A DNA stretch of 64,000 nucleotides from Methanomassiliicoccus luminyensis B10 (GCF_000308215.1 NZ_CAJE01000003.1:1-64000); one strand, 5' to 3'. Counted from the stretch's first letter, positions 47,395 through 62,750 are shown. The notes: generated from the letters alone by a model not told the origin. Translations and numbers: made by a program.

Positions 47395-48285
47395 TCAATA
47401 CTCCAGTCCGTTGGCCCGGTACGCCGCCGTCACCGCGTTCATCATGAGCATGACGATGGTCATCGGTCCGACCCCCCCGGGCACGGGGGTGATGTACGAT
47501 GCCTTCTCTTTCACCGCGTCGAAGTCCACGTCCCCCACCCATCGGTAGCCCTTCTTGGCCGTGGGATCGTCCACGCGGTTCGTTCCGACGTCGATCACCA
47601 CCGCTCCCTCCTTGATCATGTCCGCTTTGATGAACCGCGGGGAGCCCATCGCCGCGATGACGATGTCGCCCTGGCGGGTGAAGGACGCGAGGTCCTTGGT
47701 GCGGGAGTGCGCCACCGTGACGGTGGCGTTGGCGCCCCTGGCCTTCTGCATGAGAATGGCCGCAACCGGTTTCCCGACGATGTTGCTGCGCCCCACCACC
47801 ACGACGTGCTTTCCGGCGGGGTCGTTGCCCGAGCGCACAAGCATCTCCTGGATGCCGTGAGGCGTGGCCGGCAGGAACAAAGGGTCGCCGATGAGCATGC
47901 GCCCGACGTTCACGGGATGGAACCCGTCGGCGTCCTTCCCGGGGTCGATGGCGTTCAGCACCTTGTTCTCGTCGATGTGCTTTGGGAGCGGCAGCTGCAC
48001 CAGGAAGCCGTGGACCTGGGGGTCCTTGTTGAGTTCGTCCACCACGGACAGGAGCTTCTCCTCGGTGGTGTCCGCCGGGAGAACGATGGTGCGCGAATAG
48101 ATCCCCAGCTCGTCGCACGCTTTCCCCTTGTTTCGGACGTACTGCTGGGACGCGGGGTCCTCGCCCACGAGGACGACGGCCAGGCCGGGAACGATCCCCT
48201 TGGACCTCAGGTCGGCGATCTTCGCTCTCAGTTCCTGCCTGATCCGCTCGGCGATCTCGGTCCCGCTGATGATCTTGGCCGTCAT
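47395..48285 (-). CDS. folD: FolD: methylene-H4F dehydrogenase / methenyl-H4F cyclohydrolase
   Basis: A 296-residue bifunctional enzyme of the tetrahydrofolate methyl branch: methenyl-H4F cyclohydrolase and NADP-dependent methylene-H4F dehydrogenase. Seen: catalytic Tyr/Lys in QQYVRNKGKACDELG, LVQLPLPKHIDE, KDADGFHPVNVG, the nucleotide loop VVGRSNIVGKPVA and the end ITPVPGGVGPMTI. ATG 48285 gives MTAKIISG. It diverges from the secreted-protein gene; fhs follows on the other strand, so the two folate genes are near but not co-transcribed. Confidence 0.96.
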   Translation of the reverse strand: MTAKIISGTEIAERIRQELRAKIADLRSKGIVPGLAVVLVGEDPASQQYVRNKGKACDELGIYSRTIVLPADTTEEKLLSVVDELNKDPQVHGFLVQLPLPKHIDENKVLNAIDPGKDADGFHPVNVGRMLIGDPLFLPATPHGIQEMLVRSGNDPAGKHVVVVGRSNIVGKPVAAILMQKARGANATVTVAHSRTKDLASFTRQGDIVIAAMGSPRFIKADMIKEGAVVIDVGTNRVDDPTAKKGYRWVGDVDFDAVKEKASYITPVPGGVGPMTIVMLMMNAVTAAYRANGLEY

Positions 48286-48959: not shown

Positions 48960-50642
48960 ATGAAGGCCGACATAGAGATAGCCCAGGACGCCAAGGCAGA
49001 ACCTATCGAGAAGATAGCCGGGAAGCTCGGCCTCTCGCGTGACGACCTTCATTTCTACGGCCGGTACATGGCCAAGGTCCCCCTCGACGTGCTGAAGCGC
49101 TTCGACGACCGCCCCGACGGGAAGCTGGTCCTGGTCACCGCCATCACCGCCACCAAGGCCGGGGAGGGCAAGACCGTCACGTCCATCGGCCTGATGCAGG
49201 CACTGGGCAGGCTCGGCGTCAACGTGATGGGGGCACTCCGGGAGCCCTCCATGGGGCCGGTGTTCGGAATAAAGGGCGGAGCTACCGGGGGCGGCCTCTC
49301 CCAGGTGTACCCGATGTGGGACATCGACCTGCACTTCACCGGGGACATCCACGCTGTCACGTCGGCCCACAACCTGCTGTCGGCGATGGTGGAGAACAGC
49401 ATCGCCAAGGGGAACCATCTGAGGATCGACCCCACCAGGGTGGTGTGGAAGAAGGCCATCGACATGAACTGCCGCGAGCTGAGGGACATCGTGGTCGGCC
49501 TGGGCGGGAGGACCGCGGGGGGCGTCCCCCGCGAGAGCGGGTTCCTCATCACCGCCGCCTCGGAGATCAGCGCCATATTGGCGCTGGCGACGTCGATACA
49601 GGATCTCCGCGCCCGCCTCGGACGGATGGTGGTGGCATACGACGTGGAGGGGCGGCCGGTGCGCGCGGAGCAGCTGAACTGCGTCGGTGCGATGACCGTC
49701 CTGCTCAAGGACGCCCTGATGCCCAACCTGGTGCAGACCCTGGAAGGGGAGCCGGTGTTCATCCACGGGTTCCCGTTCGCCAACATCGCCCACGGGAACA
49801 ACAGCCTCCTGGCGACCAGGTACGCCCTGAAGCTCGCCGACGTGGTGGTGACGGAGGGCGGGTTCGCCGCCGACCTGGGCGCGGAGAAGTTCTTCGACAT
49901 CGTGTGCCGGAAGGCCGGCTTCCGCCCCGACTGCGCGGTCATCGTCGCGTCCATAAGGGCGCTGAAGATGCACGGGGGCGCCTGCCTGGAGGACGCCACC
50001 AGCTGCGAGCGGTCGGACCTGTCCTCGCTGAGCAGGGGCTTCGCCAACCTCGACAAGCACATCGAGAACGTGCGCAAGTACGGCGTCCCCGTGGTGGTCG
50101 CGGTGAACCGCTTCCCCACCGACCACGCGGACGAGATCGCGCTGGTGCGGGAGCACTGCGCTTCGCTGGGCATCCCCTGCGCTCTTTCCGAGGTGTTCGC
50201 CAGGGGCGGCGAGGGCGGGAGGGAGCTGGCCGAGGCGGTGATGGATGTGATGAGGACCACGCCGAGCCGGTTCCGCCCCCTCTACGACGCCAAGATGTCG
50301 ATAAAGGACAAGATCCGCACCATCGCCACCGAGATCTACGGCGCCAAGGACGTGCGCTACATCGGCACGGCGGAGAGGGACATCCGGGCCATCGAGGCGG
50401 CCAAAAGCAACGAGCTGCCCATCTGCGTGGCCAAGACCCAGCTGTCGATATCGGACGATCCCTCCCTTAAGGGCGCGCCCACCGGGTGGACCCTGACGGT
50501 GAAGGAGGTGCTTCTGTCCGCCGGGGCCGGGTTCATCGTCCCGCTGTGCGGCGACATCATGCTCATTCCCGGCCTGTCCTCCGAACCGGCGGCGGAGAGG
50601 ATCGACATCACCGACGAGGGAAGGATCATCGGGCTGAGCTAG
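48960..50642 (+). CDS. fhs: Formate-tetrahydrofolate ligase
   Basis: A 560-residue ATP-dependent ligase that makes 10-formyl-H4F from formate. Seen: P-loop ITATKAGEGKTVTSIGL, REPSMGPVFGIKGGATGGG, HFTGDIHAVTSAHNLL, and ADVVVTEGGFAADLGAEKFFDI. Length agrees with bacterial enzymes. The C-terminal block KTQLSISDDPSLKGAPTGW is intact, so an active enzyme is expected. With folD it gives the first three steps of the bacterial-type Wood-Ljungdahl methyl branch. Start ATG 48960. Such genes are sporadic in archaea, so acquisition from bacteria is likely, though base composition matches the neighbours. Confidence 0.96.
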   Translation: MKADIEIAQDAKAEPIEKIAGKLGLSRDDLHFYGRYMAKVPLDVLKRFDDRPDGKLVLVTAITATKAGEGKTVTSIGLMQALGRLGVNVMGALREPSMGPVFGIKGGATGGGLSQVYPMWDIDLHFTGDIHAVTSAHNLLSAMVENSIAKGNHLRIDPTRVVWKKAIDMNCRELRDIVVGLGGRTAGGVPRESGFLITAASEISAILALATSIQDLRARLGRMVVAYDVEGRPVRAEQLNCVGAMTVLLKDALMPNLVQTLEGEPVFIHGFPFANIAHGNNSLLATRYALKLADVVVTEGGFAADLGAEKFFDIVCRKAGFRPDCAVIVASIRALKMHGGACLEDATSCERSDLSSLSRGFANLDKHIENVRKYGVPVVVAVNRFPTDHADEIALVREHCASLGIPCALSEVFARGGEGGRELAEAVMDVMRTTPSRFRPLYDAKMSIKDKIRTIATEIYGAKDVRYIGTAERDIRAIEAAKSNELPICVAKTQLSISDDPSLKGAPTGWTLTVKEVLLSAGAGFIVPLCGDIMLIPGLSSEPAAERIDITDEGRIIGLS

Positions 50643-51268
50643 GGCCGCTCCCTCGCTTCCGCGAGCTCGCTCACCACGAACGAGCCGACGTAGGCGAGGT
50701 CCTCGGTGTCCATTATCCTCGAGGCGCTCTCGTCGAACAGCACGTTAGCCGAGCCGCTGACCTCATCGTCGCCCTTCCACAATATGACGGTGACGGGCAG
50801 CCGCGGGAACACCTCGATCTGCGCCGAGGCGTCGCCCTGCCTCAGCTTCCTCGCGCCGAGCGCTCCGGCCGCGGCCATCAATGCTTCGGGTCGATCGGGG
50901 AACAGCTCCCAGATTGCGTCGATGACGCGCTTCTTGAACGCCGCGAAGAACACGTCGCCGCCGGGCAGCTGGCGGAAGGAGATGAGCTTGCCCGTGACCC
51001 CGGCGTCGCCCGCACCGGCGAGATAGAGCACCACCAGCATGCTGGCGATGGGCTCCAGCTCCGCGCCGTTGATGGTGATGGACCGGGACGCCGGGTCGAT
51101 CACGCACCTCCTGCCCATGACCGGGAGCGTTATCTTCTCGCCGTCGAGCTCGGCCCCGGCGCTCTTTGCCTGCGACCTCATGTCCCCGCTCAGGAACCGC
51201 TCCCAGGCCCGGGCCAGCGCCCTCTCGCGGGCATCGTCCTTCAGTCCGGTGAACGCGCCGTCCTTCAC
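50639..51268 (-). CDS. DUF3786-like protein
   Basis: A 209-residue protein that fits the DUF3786 group: a beta-rich N-terminal part with VMGRRCVIDPASRSI, then MLVVLYLAGAG, ISFRQLPGGDVFFAAFKKRVI and VILWKGDDEVSGSANVLFDESAS. The family is found in anaerobes, often near corrinoid or folate enzymes, and its function is unknown to me. GTG 51268 overlaps the stop of the upstream deacetylase gene, so the pair is co-transcribed. Its end overlaps the fhs stop by four bases. Confidence 0.65.
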   Translation of the reverse strand: MKDGAFTGLKDDARERALARAWERFLSGDMRSQAKSAGAELDGEKITLPVMGRRCVIDPASRSITINGAELEPIASMLVVLYLAGAGDAGVTGKLISFRQLPGGDVFFAAFKKRVIDAIWELFPDRPEALMAAAGALGARKLRQGDASAQIEVFPRLPVTVILWKGDDEVSGSANVLFDESASRIMDTEDLAYVGSFVVSELAEARERP

Positions 51269-52095
51269 TGCCCGACCTCCCTGTCGATGTAGTCCTTCAG
51301 GGTGGTGAACTCGATCCCCCGGTCGAGAGCGCCCCGCAGCAGCGCCTTGAGCTCGGCCACGTTGCCGCGCACGCCCTTCTCGTCCACCGGGCCGCCCAGC
51401 CTTTCCACCATGTGCCAGCTGTGGTCCCCCAGGACCAGCAGGCCCTCTCCGAACTGCGAGAACAGGACCTCGTAATCGGCCGGAGGCCTCTTCCCCTCGT
51501 GGAGCGGCCACAGGTATGACTGCAGCTTCTTGCCCCTGCCGTCCACGCCCTGCGCGAGCGGCACCTCCCAGAGCCCGTTGGGGTGCCGGGACGGCGCGAT
51601 CCCGCCGTCCTCGATGGAGCGGATGACCGAGGAATCGTACAGGTACCCGCGCTCCTTCAGCGCATCGAGGACCGTTCCGTCGGCGTGAAGATAGGGGGCG
51701 CGGAACCCCGCTGGCCTCTTGCCGAATAGCTTCTCCAGCGAGGAGGTGCAGGCGTCGATGACCTGCCCGATCTCCCTGGGACCGAGCGGCACCTCATTGC
51801 TCTCTCCGGTGAGGTCCTCGTGGCCGTACCCGTGCCCGGCGATCTCGTGGCCGAACATGAGGTCCCTGAGGTCGACATCGAGGGCGATGCGCTCTGCCGT
51901 CTCGCCCTCCATGAAGAAGGTCCCCCTGATCCCCATATCGTTCAGCGCCTCTACGATCAGCGCGAGGCCGCGGGCCGAAGAGCCGAAGCGCGCGGAAGGG
52001 TCGCCGTCAACCTCTCGGGACACTGCCTTGATCTCGCCCTTCTGGGGCTGATTGACGTCCCGGTCTACGTCCACGGTGAAGGCGGCAAAGCGCAT
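51265..52095 (-). CDS. Polysaccharide deacetylase family protein
   Basis: A 276-residue NodB-type deacetylase. Conserved parts: FTVDVDRDV (metal Asp pair), GTFFMEGETAE, EIAGHGYGHEDLT (His pair H-x3-H), and GFRAPYLHADGTVLDALKERGYLYDSS. It lacks a signal peptide, so a cytoplasmic substrate such as a sugar nucleotide or lipid-linked sugar is possible. ATG 52095 is the family start. It is the first gene of a two-gene unit with the DUF3786-like protein. Confidence 0.85.
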   Translation of the reverse strand: MRFAAFTVDVDRDVNQPQKGEIKAVSREVDGDPSARFGSSARGLALIVEALNDMGIRGTFFMEGETAERIALDVDLRDLMFGHEIAGHGYGHEDLTGESNEVPLGPREIGQVIDACTSSLEKLFGKRPAGFRAPYLHADGTVLDALKERGYLYDSSVIRSIEDGGIAPSRHPNGLWEVPLAQGVDGRGKKLQSYLWPLHEGKRPPADYEVLFSQFGEGLLVLGDHSWHMVERLGGPVDEKGVRGNVAELKALLRGALDRGIEFTTLKDYIDREVGQ

Positions 52096-52517: not shown

Positions 52518-54314
52518 TCACTCTTTGGGATCGCCTTCCTTCGGACCGCCGGACCGGTCGCGCCTGATCAGGACGAACAATATCGCCGCCACGGCGACGA
52601 CCGCGAGCACCACTGCGTAGATGTACCACGAGCTGCCGCCCTCGGCGGCCTTCAGGGACAACGCGCCCGCATCGGTGCTCTGTCCCGCCGTGACGTCGAC
52701 GTACTTCTCCATGTAGACGTAGCCATCTTTCGCCACCGACAGGGTATAGTTTCCTGACGGGACATGCTCGAGCAGGAAGTAGCCGCTGGCATTGGTCGTG
52801 GTGGTCATGCCGTTGCTCAGCGTCACCTTGGCGTCGGCCACGGCTTTGCCGTCGGCGTCCCTTATGACGCCGTAGATGCTGCCCTCGTCCTTCAGGGTGG
52901 TGAACTGCCACATGAACTCCATGGGATTGCCCGCCAGGTCCTTCCCGGTCACTGCCACGGTATATTTCGTCCCGTAGTCCAGCACGGAGGCGGGAGTGAA
53001 GGTCGCGGTGTCCCCGTCCCACCTGATCTGGCCATCGATCTCATCGACGTCGATGCTGACCGAACTTTGATTCATCGCCTCGGAGAAGGTGACATTGATG
53101 ACGCTGCCGATGGCGATGTCCGTGCCGGTCGGAGATTTAGCGTCAACGCTTGGGGCCTTGGTATCCACTATGAACATCCTGAACATCGTCTCGGTGTTAC
53201 CAACGAAGCTAGTGGCCCTGACCTTTGCGGTGTGCTCGCCATCGGACTGGACAGTGAACTGGTAGCTTGTCCCATCGACCTTTGTCCAGGGCCCCCCATC
53301 GATGCTGGTCTCGGTTAGTTCGGTCAAGACGCTCGCGTCGATGGTCCATGATATGGTGTCGGTCCTTGAGGTGTAGTATGCACCGTCCTCTGACGGATAT
53401 TCGATCGATACTCCCAGTGGGATTGCGGCGACAACGGTCGAATTCTGACCATTGATCGAGCCTCTGAGGGCTTTCACATAGAACGAGTACATGGTTCCAT
53501 TATCGAGCCCGCTGACCGTGTACCGCGGGTTGTTCATGGCCCCAATGATGCCATGTCGGTATTCTTCTCCGCCGACATTTATGTAGATGGCATATTGATC
53601 GATGCTCGGGTTACCGAGATAGGTCGGAGCGTCCCAGAAAAGGGTCACCTCTCCATTGGCGGAGATGGCCGTCAGGTTGTTCGGCGCGGTAGCCTTCGCT
53701 CCGAGCTGTGCGGTGGGCACCCCTCCACGCAATTCACTTGGGAAGCTGCCCGCGTTCGCAGGGAGGTAGTATGCGATCAACCCGTAATTGGGGTTCATGA
53801 TCCAATTGGTGTCCACCGCAGGGGCCGGGCCCTCGAACACGATCGTGGCAAGGTTGTAGTCATTCCAGAACGCTAGGGGCTCAATCTTCTGAACGCTTGA
53901 AGGTATCGTGATAGAGGTCAGCGCGTGGTTGTCGTAGAACGTGAAGCTGCCTATGGTCTCGACGGTCCCTGGTATGCTGACATGCTGAAGGGCGGTGCAG
54001 CCCCGGAACGCGCCATCCCCTATGATGGTGACGCTGTCTGGTATAGTGACGGATATAATTGTGCGCTCGTTCTGGAACGCCCCCTCGGCGATCTCGACCA
54101 CCGACATCCCGTCGAGGAATCGAGGTATCGTCACTTCTCCACCGAGACCTTCATAACTCGTTATCTTGACCTTCGTACTGTCGATGAAAGCGTACTCGAA
54201 GTCTCCGAATCTGGCGGCGGACGCCGTGCTCGTCGAGAGGCCGATCGTGGCTGCGGTCGCGGACAGCAGCATCAGCGCGACAGACATCAATGTCAGGACC
54301 TTTTGGAACTTCAT
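52518..54314 (-). CDS. Large surface protein with leucine-rich, fibronectin-like and CnaB-like domains
   Basis: A 598-residue cell-surface protein. A signal peptide (about 1-33) is followed by BspA-type leucine-rich repeats (about 50-165; VTIPDSVTIIGDGAF, ITIPSSVQKIEPLAF), a fibronectin III-like domain (about 210-300), an Ig-like domain, an SbsA-type Ig-like domain with VNVTFSEAMNQSSV, a carboxypeptidase-regulatory / CnaB-like domain (GSIYGVIRDADGKAVADAKVTLS), and a C-terminal membrane helix (YAVVLAVVAVAAILFVLI) with a basic tail. ATG 54314 gives the signal peptide. Such modular proteins mediate adhesion in gut and sediment archaea. Confidence 0.85.
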   Translation of the reverse strand: MKFQKVLTLMSVALMLLSATAATIGLSTSTASAARFGDFEYAFIDSTKVKITSYEGLGGEVTIPRFLDGMSVVEIAEGAFQNERTIISVTIPDSVTIIGDGAFRGCTALQHVSIPGTVETIGSFTFYDNHALTSITIPSSVQKIEPLAFWNDYNLATIVFEGPAPAVDTNWIMNPNYGLIAYYLPANAGSFPSELRGGVPTAQLGAKATAPNNLTAISANGEVTLFWDAPTYLGNPSIDQYAIYINVGGEEYRHGIIGAMNNPRYTVSGLDNGTMYSFYVKALRGSINGQNSTVVAAIPLGVSIEYPSEDGAYYTSRTDTISWTIDASVLTELTETSIDGGPWTKVDGTSYQFTVQSDGEHTAKVRATSFVGNTETMFRMFIVDTKAPSVDAKSPTGTDIAIGSVINVTFSEAMNQSSVSIDVDEIDGQIRWDGDTATFTPASVLDYGTKYTVAVTGKDLAGNPMEFMWQFTTLKDEGSIYGVIRDADGKAVADAKVTLSNGMTTTTNASGYFLLEHVPSGNYTLSVAKDGYVYMEKYVDVTAGQSTDAGALSLKAAEGGSSWYIYAVVLAVVAVAAILFVLIRRDRSGGPKEGDPKE

Positions 54315-54458
54315 GTGCACCAACCCTCCTCGTTCGACAGCGGTGAACTCAGAGTGAAATCCCCTGCCCGATATATAACAGGAGGGGGATAGAAAAACGT
54401 TCCATGACATCACGGTCGGTGAGCGGTCGGCCGCCCTGGCTAAGCTCTCCCAAGAACC

Positions 54459-54467
54459 CTTATATAG
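54459..54467 (+). promoter_or_regulatory. TATA box of the HdrA-MetF gene block
   Basis: CTTATATAG lies about 50 bases before the ATG of the first HdrA-like gene. It would drive the five-gene block 54,512-58,650. Confidence 0.5.
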
Positions 54468-54511
54468 ATTCATTATTTTGCTAATGGCCGCAGCGGCGGA
54501 GCGCGCTCGGG

Positions 54512-55537
54512 ATGAAAAGGGTCTTGATCATCGGCGGAGGGGCGGCGGGAATGGCCGCGGCCTCCGAGCTGTCGAGGAGGGGCATAGCCTCCATTGTCGT
54601 GGACAGTGCCGATGAGGTCGGCGGGGCGCCCAACGACCTGTGCTGCAAGGGCGCTCCTCAATGCCAGCGCTGCGACGCCTGCGCGCCCGGGGACATCAAG
54701 CGCGAGGCTCTGCGCTCTCCTCTCGTCCAGGTCATTACCGGGACCCAGGTGGTCGGCGTCACCAGGAGGCCTGACGGATTCGCCGCCGTATTGAGCTCGT
54801 GCCCGCTGGGCCAGTGCGGAGCGCCCGCGATGGACGAGCTGGTGGTCGGGGCGATCATCGTGGCCATCGGCCACCAGGTCTTCGACCCCCGCCGTGACGC
54901 CCGCCTTCACTACGGCGAGTGCGAGGACATACTCTCCTCCCAGGACGTGGAGAAGGCTCTTTCGAAGAACGGCGAGCTGGTGGTCCCCTCGACCGGCAGG
55001 AGGCCGGAAAGCGTGGCCATTATCCAGTGCGTCGGCTCCAGGGACCTGCGCAGGGGCGCGCCGTACTGCTCGAAAGCCTGCTGCAAGTACGCCCTGAAGC
55101 TCGCAAAGCACCTCCGGTCCGAGGACCCGGGGACGAACATCACGTTCTTCTACATGGACTGGCGCCCCTACGACGGCAACTACGGCGAGCTCGATGCGTT
55201 CGCCGGGGAGAAGGGCGTCAGGGTCATCAGGAACAGGCCGTCGGAGACCCTCCCGGGAGCGAGGCCGGCGGTCCGCTACGCCGCTCCGGACGATGAGGTG
55301 GCGGAGGAGGAGTTCGACCTGGTGATGCTCAGCGTGGGCATCCTTCCCCCTCCGGACGCTCCGAGATTGGCCTCCCTCCTGGGGATCGAGCTCGGCCCCC
55401 TCGGCTTCTTTCCCTCCGAGAGCGAAGGCATCTTCGCCGCGGGGACCTGCACCGGCCCGAAGGACATCCGGGAGAGCATCGAGGAAGGCATCGCCGCGGC
55501 GGGATGGGCCGCCGCGTTCATGGAGGAGCCAGGATGA
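54512..55537 (+). CDS. HdrA-like FAD protein, flavin part
   Basis: A 341-residue flavoprotein related to heterodisulfide reductase subunit A. N-terminal FAD motif LIIGGGAAGMAAASEL; cysteine-rich CCKGAPQCQRCDAC near residue 48; HdrA blocks IIQCVGSRD and YCSKACCKYALKLAKHL; and the C-terminal FAD-type FAAGTCTGPKDIRESIEEG. The C-terminal ferredoxin clusters of full HdrA are missing and appear instead in the next gene. It is the first gene of the metFV block. Expected role: flavin-based electron transfer, perhaps bifurcation, to the MetF side. Confidence 0.85.
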   Translation: MKRVLIIGGGAAGMAAASELSRRGIASIVVDSADEVGGAPNDLCCKGAPQCQRCDACAPGDIKREALRSPLVQVITGTQVVGVTRRPDGFAAVLSSCPLGQCGAPAMDELVVGAIIVAIGHQVFDPRRDARLHYGECEDILSSQDVEKALSKNGELVVPSTGRRPESVAIIQCVGSRDLRRGAPYCSKACCKYALKLAKHLRSEDPGTNITFFYMDWRPYDGNYGELDAFAGEKGVRVIRNRPSETLPGARPAVRYAAPDDEVAEEEFDLVMLSVGILPPPDAPRLASLLGIELGPLGFFPSESEGIFAAGTCTGPKDIRESIEEGIAAAGWAAAFMEEPG

Positions 55538-56640
55538 GGACCGTCCTGGTGATCGGCAGCGGCGCATCATCCGTGGTGGCCGCGCTGGAGGTCCAGAGGC
55601 AGGGTGGAAAAGCGGTCATCCTGCACCCACCCGGTGACGATGGGGTCAGGGTGAAGATCCCGGGGGTCGGCGAGATCGGCGATGCCACGGTCCGGTCCCT
55701 CTCGGGCCGCCCGGGAAACTTCGTGGCCCACCTCCAAGCGGGGGGCCGCGAGGTCTCGCTGGAGTGCGGCGCGGTCATCCTCGCCATCGATGGGTCCTCA
55801 AGGCCCATGGCCTCGACCACGAGGGTGATGTCCCTCTCCGCCGCGCTCGGCGGCATCCCCGCAGCGGTCGGGAGCGCGGCCATGGTGCTCAATGCCGCCC
55901 GCCCCTCCCGGTCGTCGCACATCGACGCCGTCAAGCTCGCCGCTGACCTGAAGCGGTCCCTGCCCTGCCGCGAGGTGTACATCATCGCCAAGGAGGTGAT
56001 GACCATGGGCTCGGACGAGATCCACTATCTCGACGCCCAGCTCGCCGGGGTGATCTTCATAAGGACCGAGGGGGCGCCGGACATCGACGCGGAGGAAATG
56101 ACCGTCCATGCGGTCGACAGCGCGTCGGGGGCGGAGCTGGAGGTGCGCCCGGACCTCATCGTCCTGGAGGACGAACAGGAGGTCGACGCCGCGCCCTCGG
56201 GCCGCGGGCTCCTGGTGCCCCCGGTCGACGGCGGCCGCCTGCGCCAGGGCAACGTCGGCATGGGGGCCGCCTCCACCATCCGGGGGGGAGTGTTCCTCTG
56301 CGGCACCGCCGGGCGCCCGCTCCTCGTGGACGAGCTCATAATCTCGGCGAGAGCTGCCGCCACCAGGGCCGTTACCGTCGCCGCCCCCCCTCCCGAGGCG
56401 GGCAAGGCCGCCAAGGTGGACGCGGAGAAGTGCTCGGCCTGTCTCACCTGCGTGCGCACCTGCCCCTACTCCGCGCCGCGCATGAGCGGGGAGTTCAAGG
56501 CCGTGGTGCTCGAGGACCTGTGCCGCTCCTGCGGGGCCTGCGTGAGCATGTGCCCCAGCCGGGCGATAACGCTGGAGGGGGCGGACCGGGCGGACCTGGA
56601 CAGGATGCTGAGCGGCGCGCTCGGGGAGGGGACCGGATGA
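55534..56640 (+). CDS. HdrA-like protein with degenerate FAD part and two [4Fe-4S] clusters
   Basis: A 368-residue second HdrA-like protein. The N-terminal motif VIGSGASSVVA deviates from GxGxxG, and the cysteine block of HdrA is missing. The C-terminus carries two ferredoxin motifs, CSACLTCVRTCP and CRSCGACVSMCP. It looks like the electron-conducting complement of the preceding protein, so together they may equal one functional HdrA. ATG 55534 overlaps the previous stop (ATGA), and its own stop overlaps mvhD in the same way, indicating tight coupling. Confidence 0.82.
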   Translation: MRTVLVIGSGASSVVAALEVQRQGGKAVILHPPGDDGVRVKIPGVGEIGDATVRSLSGRPGNFVAHLQAGGREVSLECGAVILAIDGSSRPMASTTRVMSLSAALGGIPAAVGSAAMVLNAARPSRSSHIDAVKLAADLKRSLPCREVYIIAKEVMTMGSDEIHYLDAQLAGVIFIRTEGAPDIDAEEMTVHAVDSASGAELEVRPDLIVLEDEQEVDAAPSGRGLLVPPVDGGRLRQGNVGMGAASTIRGGVFLCGTAGRPLLVDELIISARAAATRAVTVAAPPPEAGKAAKVDAEKCSACLTCVRTCPYSAPRMSGEFKAVVLEDLCRSCGACVSMCPSRAITLEGADRADLDRMLSGALGEGTG

Positions 56641-57035
56641 ACGACATCAAGGTAATGCTCATTTGCTGCCGGAACGCCCGCGCCGCCGTGGACGCGGTGG
56701 AGGATATGCCGCCGGAGGTCAAGGTCCTGGAGCTCCCCTGCTCCGGGCGCGTGGACGAGGTCACCATCGTCAGGGCGCTGCGGCTGGGAGCGTCGGCGGT
56801 GATGGTGGCGGGGTGCCTGGAGGGAAACTGCCAGCACCACTCCGGCAACTATCAGGCGAGGCGTCGGGTCGATGATGCCCGCTCCATCCTCGCGCAGATC
56901 GGGGTAGAGCCGGAGAGGGTGGAGATGCTTCATCTCGCGTCAAACCAGTCCGCCAAGGCCAGGGCGGCGGTGCAGGAGATGGTGGCAAGGGCGAGAAGGC
57001 TCGGCCCCATAACGCTCACGGAGGGAAAGCGATGA
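56637..57035 (+). CDS. mvhD: MvhD/FlpD-like iron-sulfur protein
   Basis: A 132-residue protein of the MvhD family, a [2Fe-2S] electron carrier between HdrA and a partner enzyme. Seen: LICCRNARAAV, VLELPCSGRVDEVTIVRAL and VAGCLEGNCQHHSGNYQARRRV, the usual cysteine pattern. In hydrogenotrophic methanogens the partner is a hydrogenase; here the partner is likely MetFV, as in acetogenic bacteria. Start ATG 56637. Confidence 0.9.
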   Translation: MNDIKVMLICCRNARAAVDAVEDMPPEVKVLELPCSGRVDEVTIVRALRLGASAVMVAGCLEGNCQHHSGNYQARRRVDDARSILAQIGVEPERVEMLHLASNQSAKARAAVQEMVARARRLGPITLTEGKR

Positions 57036-57736
57036 TCATTGCGGAGCAGAAGGACCTGGAGACGATAGCCTCCATGCTCGAAGGGCACAGCGACATCCTG
57101 GTGGCGGGCTGCCGCTCCTGCGTGGCCATATGCCTTGCCGGAGGGGAGAGGGAGGTAGCCACTCTGTCGGAGGCGCTGCGGCTGAGGTCGGCGCTGCGGG
57201 GCAGCGGGTGGAACATCTCCGAGACCACCCTGGAGAGGGCGTGCGAGAAGGAATGGGCCGGGGACATCGTTCCCCTGGCGGAGGGTAAGGACGCCATCCT
57301 GTGCCTCGCCTGCGGCGTCGGCGCCCAGGTGCTGCAGGAGATGTATCCCCAGGTGAGGGTCGTTCCCGGTCTCGACACCTCCAACATGGGAGCTCCCGAG
57401 GAGCAGGGCATCTACCTCGAGAAGTGCGGGGGATGCGGCGACTGCGTCCTTCATCTTACCGGAGGGGTGTGCCCCGTGGCACGCTGTTCCAAATCGCTCA
57501 TGAACGGGCCCTGCGGCGGCTCCCAGGACGGCCGCTGCGAGGTCGACAAGGACACCCCGTGCGGGTGGGACCAGATCTATCAGAGCCTCAAGCGGCTGGG
57601 CCGCCTCGACCTGATGGAAGTGAACATCCCGCCCAAGAACTGGCTCCCCTCCCGCTCCGGGGGGCCCAGGAAGATAGTGCGGAAGGCCGCGGTGCTGAGC
57701 GACGACGAGAAAGCGATCAAGGAGGGGAGGACATGA
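57032..57736 (+). CDS. metV: MetV-like zinc/iron-sulfur subunit of methylene-H4F reductase
   Basis: A 234-residue MetV homologue. Its N-terminal part has VAGCRSCVAICLAGG and the C-terminal part the family's cysteine block EKCGGCGDCVLHLTGGVCP...CSKSLMNGPCGG, which binds a cluster or zinc and docks to MetF. ATG 57032 overlaps the mvhD stop and the stop overlaps metF. MetV with MetF is typical of acetogenic bacteria; in this archaeon it marks a bacterial-type methylene-H4F reductase. Confidence 0.9.
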   Translation: MIIAEQKDLETIASMLEGHSDILVAGCRSCVAICLAGGEREVATLSEALRLRSALRGSGWNISETTLERACEKEWAGDIVPLAEGKDAILCLACGVGAQVLQEMYPQVRVVPGLDTSNMGAPEEQGIYLEKCGGCGDCVLHLTGGVCPVARCSKSLMNGPCGGSQDGRCEVDKDTPCGWDQIYQSLKRLGRLDLMEVNIPPKNWLPSRSGGPRKIVRKAAVLSDDEKAIKEGRT

Positions 57737-58650
57737 AGGCGGGCAGCAATCTTGAGAAGGTGCTCGAGTCCGGAAGGTTCGCCGTCACCGCCGAGATCGG
57801 ACCACCGAGGTCGGCGAGCGCCGACGCGATAAGGAAGCGGGCGCAGTTGCTCCGCGGCACCGCCGACGCGTTCAACCTTACCGACAACCAGACCGCCATA
57901 GTGCGCCTGTCCAGCTTCGCCTCCTCAGTGGCGTGCCTGCAGGAAGGCATCGAGCCGGTGATGCAGATGACCTGCCGCGACCGGAACCGCATCGCCATGC
58001 AGTCCGACGCGCTGGGCGCGTCGGCCCTCGGCATACGGAACATCCTGTGCATCTCCGGGGACCACCAGACCTTCGGGAACCAGAGGGAGGCGAAGAACGT
58101 ATACGACCTCGACTCCGTACAGGAGCTGATGGTCCTGCGGAACATGAGGGACCAGGGCAAGGTGTGGGGAGGCGACGCGCTGGAGGAGCCGCCCAGGCTG
58201 TACCTCGGCGCGGCGGCGAACCCCTTCGCCGATCCCTTCGAGTTCCGGGTGGCCCGTCTGGCCAAGAAGGTGGACGCCGGCGCCGACTTCGTGCAGACGC
58301 AGGCGGTGTTCGATCTTGACAGGTTCGAGAGCTTCATGGCGCAGGTGCGCGAGAGGGGCCTGGACAAGAAGGTCCACATCCTCGCCGGGGTGATCCCCCT
58401 CAAATCGGCGGGAGCGGCCAAGTTCATGAAGGCCAAGGTGTCGGGGATGAGCGTCCCCGACGCGATCATCGAACGCATGAGGTCCGCCTCCGACCCCAAG
58501 AAGGAGGGGGTCAGGATATGCGTGGAAACGATCGACCGGCTGAGGGAGATGGAGGGGGTGCACGGCGTTCACGTCATGGCCATCGCATGGGAGGAGATGG
58601 TCCCGGCGGTCGTGGAACAGGCCGGCCTGTTCCCCCGGCCGGGGGACTGA
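57733..58650 (+). CDS. metF: Methylene-tetrahydrofolate reductase MetF
   Basis: A 305-residue TIM-barrel enzyme that reduces methylene-H4F to methyl-H4F. Family blocks: AVTAEIGPPRS, FNLTDNQTA, MQMTCRDRNRIAMQSD, ILCISGDHQTFGN, and FVQTQAVFDLDRFESFM. Length is normal for the short MetF that works with MetV. ATG 57733 overlaps the metV stop. A hairpin follows the stop. Since MetFV in acetogens is driven through Hdr/MvhD partners, the preceding three genes likely supply or take its electrons. Confidence 0.95.
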   Translation: MKAGSNLEKVLESGRFAVTAEIGPPRSASADAIRKRAQLLRGTADAFNLTDNQTAIVRLSSFASSVACLQEGIEPVMQMTCRDRNRIAMQSDALGASALGIRNILCISGDHQTFGNQREAKNVYDLDSVQELMVLRNMRDQGKVWGGDALEEPPRLYLGAAANPFADPFEFRVARLAKKVDAGADFVQTQAVFDLDRFESFMAQVRERGLDKKVHILAGVIPLKSAGAAKFMKAKVSGMSVPDAIIERMRSASDPKKEGVRICVETIDRLREMEGVHGVHVMAIAWEEMVPAVVEQAGLFPRPGD

Positions 58651-58712: not shown

Positions 58713-58817
58713 TTAGAAGGGGAATACGGGGAGCCATCCAGAGGCCGCTATGACGGTCCACGCTGCGAAGAATACGACCCCCGTGCTGTAGAAGAACGAA
58801 TACGGCAATGCCACCAT
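58713..58817 (-). CDS. Hydrophobic microprotein 1 (34 residues)
   Basis: A short minus-strand gene with a strong ribosome site: AAAGGAGGTGAAA then ATG 58817. The product starts MVALPYSFFYSTGVVFF and ends AASGWLPVFPF, with a single hydrophobic helix of about 20 residues and no charged residue. The shared core LPYSFFYSTGVVFFAAWT and AASGWLP recur in microprotein 2 about 360 bases away. A conserved leader element and a downstream hairpin frame the gene. Function is unknown; a small subunit of a membrane complex or a membrane-active peptide is possible. Confidence 0.75.
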   Translation of the reverse strand: MVALPYSFFYSTGVVFFAAWTVIAASGWLPVFPF

Positions 58818-58838
58818 TTTCACCTCCTTTGCAATTCC

Positions 58839-59014: not shown

Positions 59015-59041
59015 AAAAATGAGGGGGCCCACAAGGGGCCC
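59015..59041 (-). terminator. Terminator of microprotein 2
   Basis: On the minus strand GGGCCC-cttgt-GGGCCC (59041-59025) is followed by CCTCATTTTTATCC, a stem with T-run. It lies 38 bases after the stop of microprotein 2. Confidence 0.55.
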
Positions 59042-59078
59042 GCTGGCGTTTGGCAGCGTTCGGTCAGATGGCCCATCC

Positions 59079-59177
59079 TTAGAAGAAGGGGAGCCATCCA
59101 GAGGCCGCAATGGTGGTCCAGGCGGCGAAGAACACCACACCAGTGCTGTAGAAGAACGAGTACGGCAGCGCGAACAT
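59079..59177 (-). CDS. Hydrophobic microprotein 2 (32 residues)
   Basis: Paralogue of microprotein 1. ATAGGAGGTGACAAAAA precedes ATG 59177. The product begins MFALPYSFFYSTGVVFF and ends IAASGWLPFF, with one uncharged membrane helix. Between the copies 27 of 32 residues are the same by eye, mostly with synonymous codon changes, a sign of selection on the protein. It has its own AT-rich promoter region (TATTAAATACC near 59,246), leader element and terminator. Function unknown. Confidence 0.78.
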   Translation of the reverse strand: MFALPYSFFYSTGVVFFAAWTTIAASGWLPFF

Positions 59178-59580
59178 TTTTTGTCACCTCCTATAGATTT
59201 TATCCCTTTCCTCCAGGGTCGGTTCTATTTCTGTAATGGGGGGTATTTAATACTATCTATAACGATAATATTAGATTTAATAATGTGGTCCATTTACAAT
59301 TGTTATAAAACGGACGCGAACAAAGATCGCGGGGACAATGGCTTGCGAAAGCTCTCTGGCTGGGACGTTCTGTCCGGTCCGCGGACGCTCCCGCCTGCCG
59401 GTCCTCCCACCATGGATTATTTTCGATAGAGGACTATTTAGTTTTTTTGATGGACCCAGTCCCCCGGGCCGCCGCGGACCAAGCGGGGGTCGGCGGGAGG
59501 ATCGGCAACCAGGGCGCGCAGCATCAAGGGTCGAAAAAGATGAAAAGGGGAAAAGGTTTAGTCGTTCGTTGCGTTCCTGC
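59178..59580. other. Spacer between microprotein 2 and the cysteine-rich surface gene
   Basis: About 400 bases. The part up to 59,290 is the promoter and leader of microprotein 2; the remainder is GC-rich and shows no recognised gene. Confidence 0.4.
59204..59218 (-). promoter_or_regulatory. Leader element shared by both microprotein genes (copy 2)
   Basis: On the minus strand CCCTGGAGGAAAGGG lies 27 bases before ATG 59177, in the same arrangement as copy 1. Conservation outside the coding sequence suggests a shared transcript-level control or initiation signal. Confidence 0.5.
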
Positions 59581-61826: not shown

Positions 61827-62603
61827 TCAGGCCCGCAGGAAATCGTCGCAGTACAGCTTCTCGTTCATGAGCAGTTCCCCCGCCTTCAGCACGTCCATGA
61901 GGTCCTTGTCCTCGGGGTCGAGGATGGCGGCGGTGAGGCCGGAGCCCATGAGCATGGCCAGGAAGGTGCGGTTTATGAGGCTGCGCTGCTTGGTGCAGTT
62001 GGAAACGTTGCTGAGGCCGACCACGGTGCGGGGGGCGGGGTCGTTGAGCCCCTGGAACATCTGCACCGCCTGGATGATCTTCTTGGACTGGTCCTGGGCC
62101 GCGCCTACCGGGAGCACCAGGGGGTCGAGGTACAGCCGGTCGGGCATGATGTCGTACTCCATCGCCTTGGTCATCATGATCATTGCCATCTCGGCCCGGG
62201 CGTCGGCGGAGTTCGGAACGCCCTTCTCGTCCATGCACAGGCAGATTATCTCGGCGTCGTACTCCCTGCACAGGGGGAAGAACCTCTCCATCTTCTTCGC
62301 CTCGGCCGTCGTGGAGTTCATGATGACTCTGTTCTTCGCCGCCTTCAGCCCCGCCTCCATGGTCTTCGGCCCCGAGGTGTCCAGGGACAGCGGCACGTCC
62401 GCCACTTCCTGGAGCGTGCGAACGAGCCACTCCATGGCCGCGGGGCCGTCCTCGCGCCCCGGCCCGACGTTGACGTCAAGCGCCTGCGCGCCGCACTCGA
62501 CCTGCTTCACCGCGAGCTCCTGGATGAACTTCGCGTCTCTCCCGTCGATGGCCTTGCCCACCGAGGTGAACAGCCCGTTGATCCTCTCGCTGATGACGTA
62601 CAT
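61827..62603 (-). CDS. Methyl-H4F:corrinoid methyltransferase-like (AcsE/MtgB type, pterin-binding)
   Basis: A 258-residue TIM-barrel methyltransferase of the pterin-binding group that includes AcsE and MtgB. It starts MYVISERINGLFTSVGKAI, as AcsE does; further blocks are GAQALDVNVGPGREDG, DVPLSLDTSGPKTMEAGL, NRVIMNSTTAEAKKME, and VVGLSNVSNCTKQRSLIN. Expected reaction: transfer of the methyl group between methyl-H4F and a corrinoid protein (not encoded here). It completes, with fhs, folD and metFV, a route between formate and methyl-corrinoid. ATG 62603 is chosen; a longer start at 62,650 is possible but unlike the family. Confidence 0.88.
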   Translation of the reverse strand: MYVISERINGLFTSVGKAIDGRDAKFIQELAVKQVECGAQALDVNVGPGREDGPAAMEWLVRTLQEVADVPLSLDTSGPKTMEAGLKAAKNRVIMNSTTAEAKKMERFFPLCREYDAEIICLCMDEKGVPNSADARAEMAMIMMTKAMEYDIMPDRLYLDPLVLPVGAAQDQSKKIIQAVQMFQGLNDPAPRTVVGLSNVSNCTKQRSLINRTFLAMLMGSGLTAAILDPEDKDLMDVLKAGELLMNEKLYCDDFLRA

Positions 62604-62750
62604 GGTCGTGCCTGGAAGTGGGAATCGATGATCGCTAGAAAATGTTTTCCCCATGGCCGGGGCGCCGGGACGCAGTATACGTGTCATGCGCAGCATCATC
62701 TCCCCTCGCCCGGATGGCTCGCCGCGGCATAGCGCGCAGGAAGAACGGAT

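Follow-up and report, generated by a model that had tools for sequence, protein, structure and literature searches.

A MetVF block of Methanomassiliicoccus luminyensis with a double HdrA in two genes and without its predicted ferredoxin branch

How might a methylene-tetrahydrofolate (methylene-H4F) reductase of the MetVF type exchange electrons when its HdrA is divided between two genes and no hdrB or hdrC gene accompanies it? This question is raised by a five-gene block, hdrA1-hdrA2-mvhD-metV-metF, at positions 54512-58650 of a stretch of 64,000 nucleotides from Methanomassiliicoccus luminyensis B10 (NZ_CAJE01000003.1:1-64000; this whole stretch is the window to which positions refer). Four 4-base ATGA overlaps join each gene to the next, and both these overlaps and the coordinates given in the initial annotation were confirmed. 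The new element here is that the predicted ferredoxin branch of the HdrA is either present or absent in both hdrA genes at once and is gone in this genome.

The two HdrA proteins are distinct and complementary. The first gene, hdrA1 (54512-55537, plus strand), encodes a flavin half of 341 residues with an intact flavin adenine dinucleotide (FAD) motif, GGGAAG, and in profile searches the protein matches HdrA models and the solved HdrA from the FAD domain through the C-terminal FAD motif. It carries the cysteines C45-C51-C54-C57 and, in its thioredoxin reductase (TrxR)-type domain, the [4Fe-4S] cysteines C173/C186/C190/C191, which correspond to C386/C399/C403/C404 of the Methanothermococcus HdrA (5odc), as K196 does to K409 (the numbering was counted off printed HMMER alignments); no ferredoxin motif was found in the HdrA1 sequence. 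The second gene, hdrA2 (55534-56640, plus strand), encodes a degenerate-FAD scaffold half of 368 residues, in which GSGASS...H31 stands in place of the GGGxAG...E of HdrA. Pfam FAD families match it only at E-values of 0.006-0.016, failing the family cut-offs, and HdrA models first align to it at residue 112-129; its eight C-terminal ferredoxin cysteines (C300-C310 and C330-C340) form two [4Fe-4S] motifs, and the N-terminal iron-sulfur (FeS) domain is absent, the protein beginning at the FAD motif. A longer hdrA2 start at 55504 was discarded, and the ATGA start agrees with the homologues. AlphaFold2 models of both proteins, built on 10-row alignments, reached a mean predicted local distance difference test score of 83.3 for HdrA1 (best Foldseek matches 5odh/5odc, E ~2e-32) and 85.5 for HdrA2 (best match HdrA 5odc, E 7e-25). 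Most relatives outside Methanomassiliicoccales keep an intact FAD motif in HdrA2, whereas every examined member of the order has a degenerate one, so that the decay of this motif looks derived.

What these halves are becomes clear from comparison with fused proteins. Hidden Markov models built for the cores of HdrA1 and HdrA2 were used to score 29 fused HdrA (1,380-1,590 residues) from metVF loci: the HdrA1 profile scored far better on the N-terminal module in 29/29, and the HdrA2 profile exceeded the HdrA1 profile on the C-terminal module in 28/29, the lone exception (L114) being fragmentary with two close scores. In one such protein (L100), the scores for the two modules were 205 vs 48 bits and 149 vs 130 bits, and the same assignment was obtained for the 1007-residue HdrA of this genome. 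Since HdrA1 corresponds to the N-terminal and HdrA2 to the C-terminal module of the fused HdrA encoded beside metVF, the pair is, at the level of sequence, a double HdrA in split form, i.e., a known part encoded as two genes, and the two-module HdrA that is a feature of the MetVF complex is present. The canonical HdrA set, comprising the FAD site, the TrxR-domain cluster, K409 and the C-terminal, MvhD-facing ferredoxin, is complete only when both proteins are taken together. Complementary tandem or fused HdrA have been described in anaerobic methanotrophic archaea (ANME) and Moorella (PMC9012536). The anatomy reported in the initial annotation, with an intact FAD site and cysteine block but no C-terminal ferredoxin clusters in the first protein, and a degenerate FAD motif with two [4Fe-4S] motifs in the second, is thus right; of its proposal that the two proteins divide HdrA functions, the complementarity stands, and the division itself amounts to the separate encoding of the modules of a fused double HdrA.

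The block is widely kept. The full gene order is found in 32/37 archaeal-clade loci; in the remainder, hdrA1 is in two pieces (L121), the contig ends within the locus (L158), or metVF stands alone (three loci of family f2). All inspected Methanomassiliicoccales families except f2, and Thermoplasmatota kin, retain it. In f2 (L153, L154, L164, L165 and L170), metV-metF occurs alone at the same syntenic place, without the HdrA1A2-MvhD module. The archaeal sequences form a single group in the MetV+MetF tree (approximate likelihood ratio support, SH-aLRT, of 100), and 40/40 HdrA1 sequences carry the three FAD glycines, the motif CKxxxxCxxCxxC and the four cluster cysteines of the TrxR domain without variation. 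Given this five-gene order and these invariant motifs, chance or an annotation artefact as the source of the block is ruled out. Poudel and colleagues (PMC6085437) had put one archaeon, M. intestinalis, forward as a candidate of the MetFV-MvhD-HdrABC type.

According to Chadwick and colleagues (PMC9012536), the ferredoxin branch carries electrons to ferredoxin across two subunits; in the present terms it consists of the inserted ferredoxin domain of HdrA1 and the N-terminal FeS domain of HdrA2. Among 35 non-redundant loci, 19 have the HdrA1 insert and 16 lack it; HdrA2 of the same 19 carries four or more cysteines in an N-terminal FeS domain, which in the other 16 is missing or has lost ligands. 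The two halves are concordant in 35/35 loci, although four g7 loci and L167, in which the cysteine spacing differs, are judgement calls in this scoring. Both halves are gone in M. luminyensis, where the HdrA1 linker measures 115 residues with 3 cysteines, vs 166-178 residues with 8-10 cysteines where the insert is present. The joint presence or absence in both genes is a pattern rather than a statistically secured association, and it fits a heterodimer that would have given up ferredoxin reduction.

Compared with canonical bifurcating HdrA (HdrABC-MvhAGD), the block lacks the inserted ferredoxin and N-terminal FeS domains. Short HdrA proteins also occur in the sHdrA system, which functions in sulfur oxidation, and no sHdr gene cluster with B- and C-type subunits beside the A subunit turned up in the neighbourhood of the block. 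Its arrangement of a flavin half, an FeS half and MvhD may also resemble that of QmoAB. HdrA1 shares its short fold, a single module, with the sHdrA of Hyphomicrobium denitrificans (6tjr), on which its model superposes with a TM-score of 0.85 over the whole length at 29% identity. As in the HdrABC-MvhD-MetVF systems of Moorella thermoacetica, Sporomusa ovata and Chloroflexota, MetV, MetF, MvhD and a two-module HdrA are encoded together; in contrast to these systems, the HdrA is in two genes, hdrB and hdrC are absent from the cluster, an NAD(P)H-type insertion is wanting, the ferredoxin insert and N-terminal FeS domain have been lost, and the FAD motif of HdrA2 is degenerate. Also related are actinomycetotal hdrA-mvhD-metVF-hdrCB clusters (L129 and L131; cf. 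Hakuba Actinobacteria, PMC7325909), which share the split HdrA1 and HdrA2, the cysteine motif and the lack of an inserted ferredoxin, but differ in having hdrC-hdrB directly 3′ of metF, an intact HdrA2 FAD motif, and an HdrA2 N-terminal domain that is kept with an incomplete cysteine set. The tandem and fused HdrA of ANME (HdrA5/6, 12/13, 3 and 4; PMC9012536) likewise comprise two complementary HdrA thought to be heterodimeric, and the same logic is seen in those relatives of the block that retain the ferredoxin branch; however, the ANME clusters have no link to MetVF, and every one of their HdrA retains the FAD residues, whereas in HdrA2 of the block the FAD motif is lost. In the ANME-type pair, one subunit has the N-terminal domain and the other Cys197; this complement is gone here, whereas the N-terminal domain is present in relatives such as L047 and L048.

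As the initial annotation pointed out, HdrB and HdrC are missing from the block, but the genome of this Methanomassiliicoccales methanogen (2.62 Mb; completeness 99.7%, contamination 4.3%; with mcrA and one metV) holds two hdrC-hdrB pairs elsewhere, on contig C13 at ~262 kb and on contig C1 at ~22.4 kb. Moreover, the canonical 1007-residue HdrA with its MvhD (C13, ~50 kb) also has no adjoining hdrBC, and hdrBC is usually encoded apart from hdrA in Methanomassiliicoccales (PMC4153887). An operon lacking hdrBC is therefore weak evidence in this lineage for a complex lacking HdrBC, and what the initial annotation drew from this absence is weaker than it stated. The C1 pair, hdrC2B2, was considered as a dedicated partner, which is not supported, since its presence does not track the block; it is also present in some genomes without metV. 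This pair belongs to a second conserved Hdr cluster, with hdrB2-hdrC2, an HdrD-like protein and MvhD (L054:7388-11144, i.e., G000:C1 ~22.4-26.1 kb), which recurs in L152, L156 and L157 and in G293 includes a 980-residue HdrA. In one f2 genus (L153 and L154), metVF has an HdrC2B2-like pair at a distance of 3-4 kb, and HdrA1A2 is absent there.

We put at about even chances that an archaeal variant of the HdrA- and MvhD-linked MetVF methylene-H4F reductase is encoded here, with the double HdrA as a heterodimer, and that it works linearly with HdrCB in trans as its partner; complex formation, electron path, partner and direction are all what we infer. Electrons would pass between the MetF flavin, the FeS cluster of MetV, the [2Fe-2S] cluster of MvhD, the two [4Fe-4S] clusters of HdrA2 and the FAD of HdrA1, and onward through the TrxR-domain [4Fe-4S] cluster of HdrA1 to an external partner, a second HdrA1 cluster being probably bound by CKxxxxCxxCxxC. 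Because the ferredoxin branch is gone from both halves, canonical bifurcation to ferredoxin is unlikely and a linear wire would be expected; a path other than standard bifurcation, as suggested in the initial annotation, is thus probable, and the ferredoxin destination that it also entertained is the least expected, since the inserted ferredoxin and N-terminal relay domains are lacking. The best guess for the partner is HdrCB encoded elsewhere, which would yield a methyl-H4F/heterodisulfide (CoM-S-S-CoB) oxidoreductase serving the H4F one-carbon (C1) pool and the nearby acetyl-CoA synthase (ACS) pathway. In the bacterial split pairs L129 and L131, HdrA1 is equally reduced and hdrC-hdrB directly follows metF, indicating that HdrC can be reached from the TrxR cluster even when this branch is lacking. 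The CoM-S-S-CoB couple lies at -140 mV. Methylene/methyl-H4F lies at -200 mV (PMC9430772), and a linear wire from MetVF to HdrBC would be downhill by ~12 kJ/mol in the oxidative direction, turning methyl groups into a source of C1 units, a role that Lang et al. 2015 (as cited in PMC6147122) had suggested for this order. The oxidative direction is provisionally favoured because the TrxR cluster, which in HdrABC faces HdrC, is invariant, the ferredoxin branch is lost, and the reduced split pairs of bacteria adjoin hdrCB. Conceivably, and here we are only tentative, an HdrA complex that once bifurcated now serves, in this family, solely as a methyl-H4F:heterodisulfide oxidoreductase without bifurcation, and would directly wire the folate branch of the Wood-Ljungdahl pathway to the CoM-S-S-CoB pool via shared HdrCB.

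Several observations weigh against this linear scheme. No hdrB or hdrC lies within 6.5 kb in any of 31 archaeal-clade split-pair loci, vs 43/59 other loci with one (both counts are lower bounds, owing to contig ends), so that operon structure lends an HdrBC partner no support. Close homologues of hdrC2B2 are absent from g139 except G305, and from G174 and g7; this pair lies in its own cluster with MvhD/HdrD-like neighbours and is missing from several block-bearing genomes. The joint loss of the branch comprises about three changes on the tree, with two well-supported contrasts, and with so few independent changes a sign test cannot reach significance. The position of K409 is R, H or G in the HdrA1 of some relatives. 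Furthermore, the ferredoxin domain of HdrA2 might dock ferredoxin directly, and MetVF enzymes take ferredoxin electrons in vitro (PMC9430772; PMC8760232 for MetVF-type enzymes).

These last points lend themselves to a reading in which reduced ferredoxin, produced by Mvh-HdrABC, donates directly to MetVF, with HdrA1A2-MvhD a mere adaptor or relay and no coupling; the same enzyme would then work in the reductive direction, toward ACS, and much energy would be lost. The f2 loci, at which metVF alone occupies the same place and so presumably works without the HdrA module, and the nearby genes for ACS and the corrinoid iron-sulfur protein are in keeping with such an enzyme. We nevertheless regard it as unlikely, given that the HdrA module is strongly constrained in all inspected non-f2 families, that a mere relay needs neither a flavin nor a TrxR cluster, and that the canonical ferredoxin-facing domain is exactly the part that was lost. 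The invariance of CKxxxxCxxCxxC, even where the N-terminal relay domain is missing, and the retention of K409 as K196 in M. luminyensis would suit an enzyme that still bifurcates, the FAD of HdrA1 splitting or merging electrons among MetVF, an acceptor of the HdrBC kind and a second one of low potential, to which a CKxxxxCxxCxxC cluster would lead in place of the lost ferredoxin branch. This is quite improbable in our estimate: a ferredoxin docking domain is not evident, the variation at K409 counts against it too, and CKxxxxCxxCxxC also occurs in relatives that retain the branch. Still more doubtful is exchange through HdrA1 with a membrane partner, such as an Fpo-like complex (the initial annotation had named Fpo) or HdrD. 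HdrD and an Fpo-like complex that oxidises ferredoxin are known from the order (PMC10804542), and the MetVF-HdrABC-MvhD proteins of Sporomusa are partly membrane-associated (PMC9430772); but no fpo or hdrD link was seen among the genes around the block.

The remaining genes of the block, all on the plus strand, are mvhD (56637-57035; PF02662, 2e-31), encoding the [2Fe-2S] linker subunit, metV (57032-57736; C-terminal domain PF12225, 7e-35), encoding the FeS subunit of MetVF, and metF (57733-58650; PF02219, 2e-42), encoding the methylene-H4F reductase flavoprotein. A TATA-like element, TTATATA (54460-54466, plus strand), read directly in the sequence upstream of hdrA1, is a candidate archaeal promoter. 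The neighbourhood is one of C1 metabolism: folD (47395-48285, minus strand; methylene-H4F dehydrogenase/cyclohydrolase), the conserved upstream neighbour fhs (48960-50642, plus strand; formate-H4F ligase, PF01268), purH, and a conserved downstream pterin-binding methyltransferase (61827-62633, minus strand; PF00809), which is AcsE/MeTr-like by family and position. Farther along the contig are a RACo-type activator, two CdhD-family corrinoid iron-sulfur protein genes and acetyl-CoA synthase, the latter two kinds 35-41 kb downstream of metF. Across genomes, cdhC co-occurs with metV (42/47 vs 29/100; Fisher p 2e-12, uncorrected for phylogeny), and the two are often 14-41 kb apart. The acetyl-CoA synthase (CdhC/AcsB) gene itself (G000:C3 ~96.8-100 kb; L176:1-3189), downstream of the window, contains an intein with a LAGLIDADG domain (PF14890, PF14528), and long open frames in several relatives suggest an intein there too. 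Between fhs and hdrA1 lie a DUF3786 gene and a polysaccharide-deacetylase-like gene (50639-52095), the latter at the same place in most examined relatives of the order, followed at 52518-54473 by the gene of a large repeat protein, secreted or anchored and by eye resembling leucine-rich repeats, which was not seen at this position in the examined relatives. Right after metF, on the minus strand (58713-58823), is a 36-residue hydrophobic open reading frame, MKMVALPYSFFYSTGVVFFAAWTVIAASGWLPVFPF, with an apparent tandem repeat ~330 bases further on (~59040-59190, minus strand).

One published model of Methanomassiliicoccales metabolism assumed NAD(P)H as the electron carrier and itself cautioned that this does not match ferredoxin/Fpo (PMC6147122). 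The conserved MetVF-MvhD-HdrA1A2 block suggests instead that the electrons of folate C1 metabolism run via an HdrA wire. Furthermore, the relatives of this block range naturally from a complete to a stripped ferredoxin branch, distributed over two genes, so that the assignment of electron branches in HdrA may be testable by comparing them.

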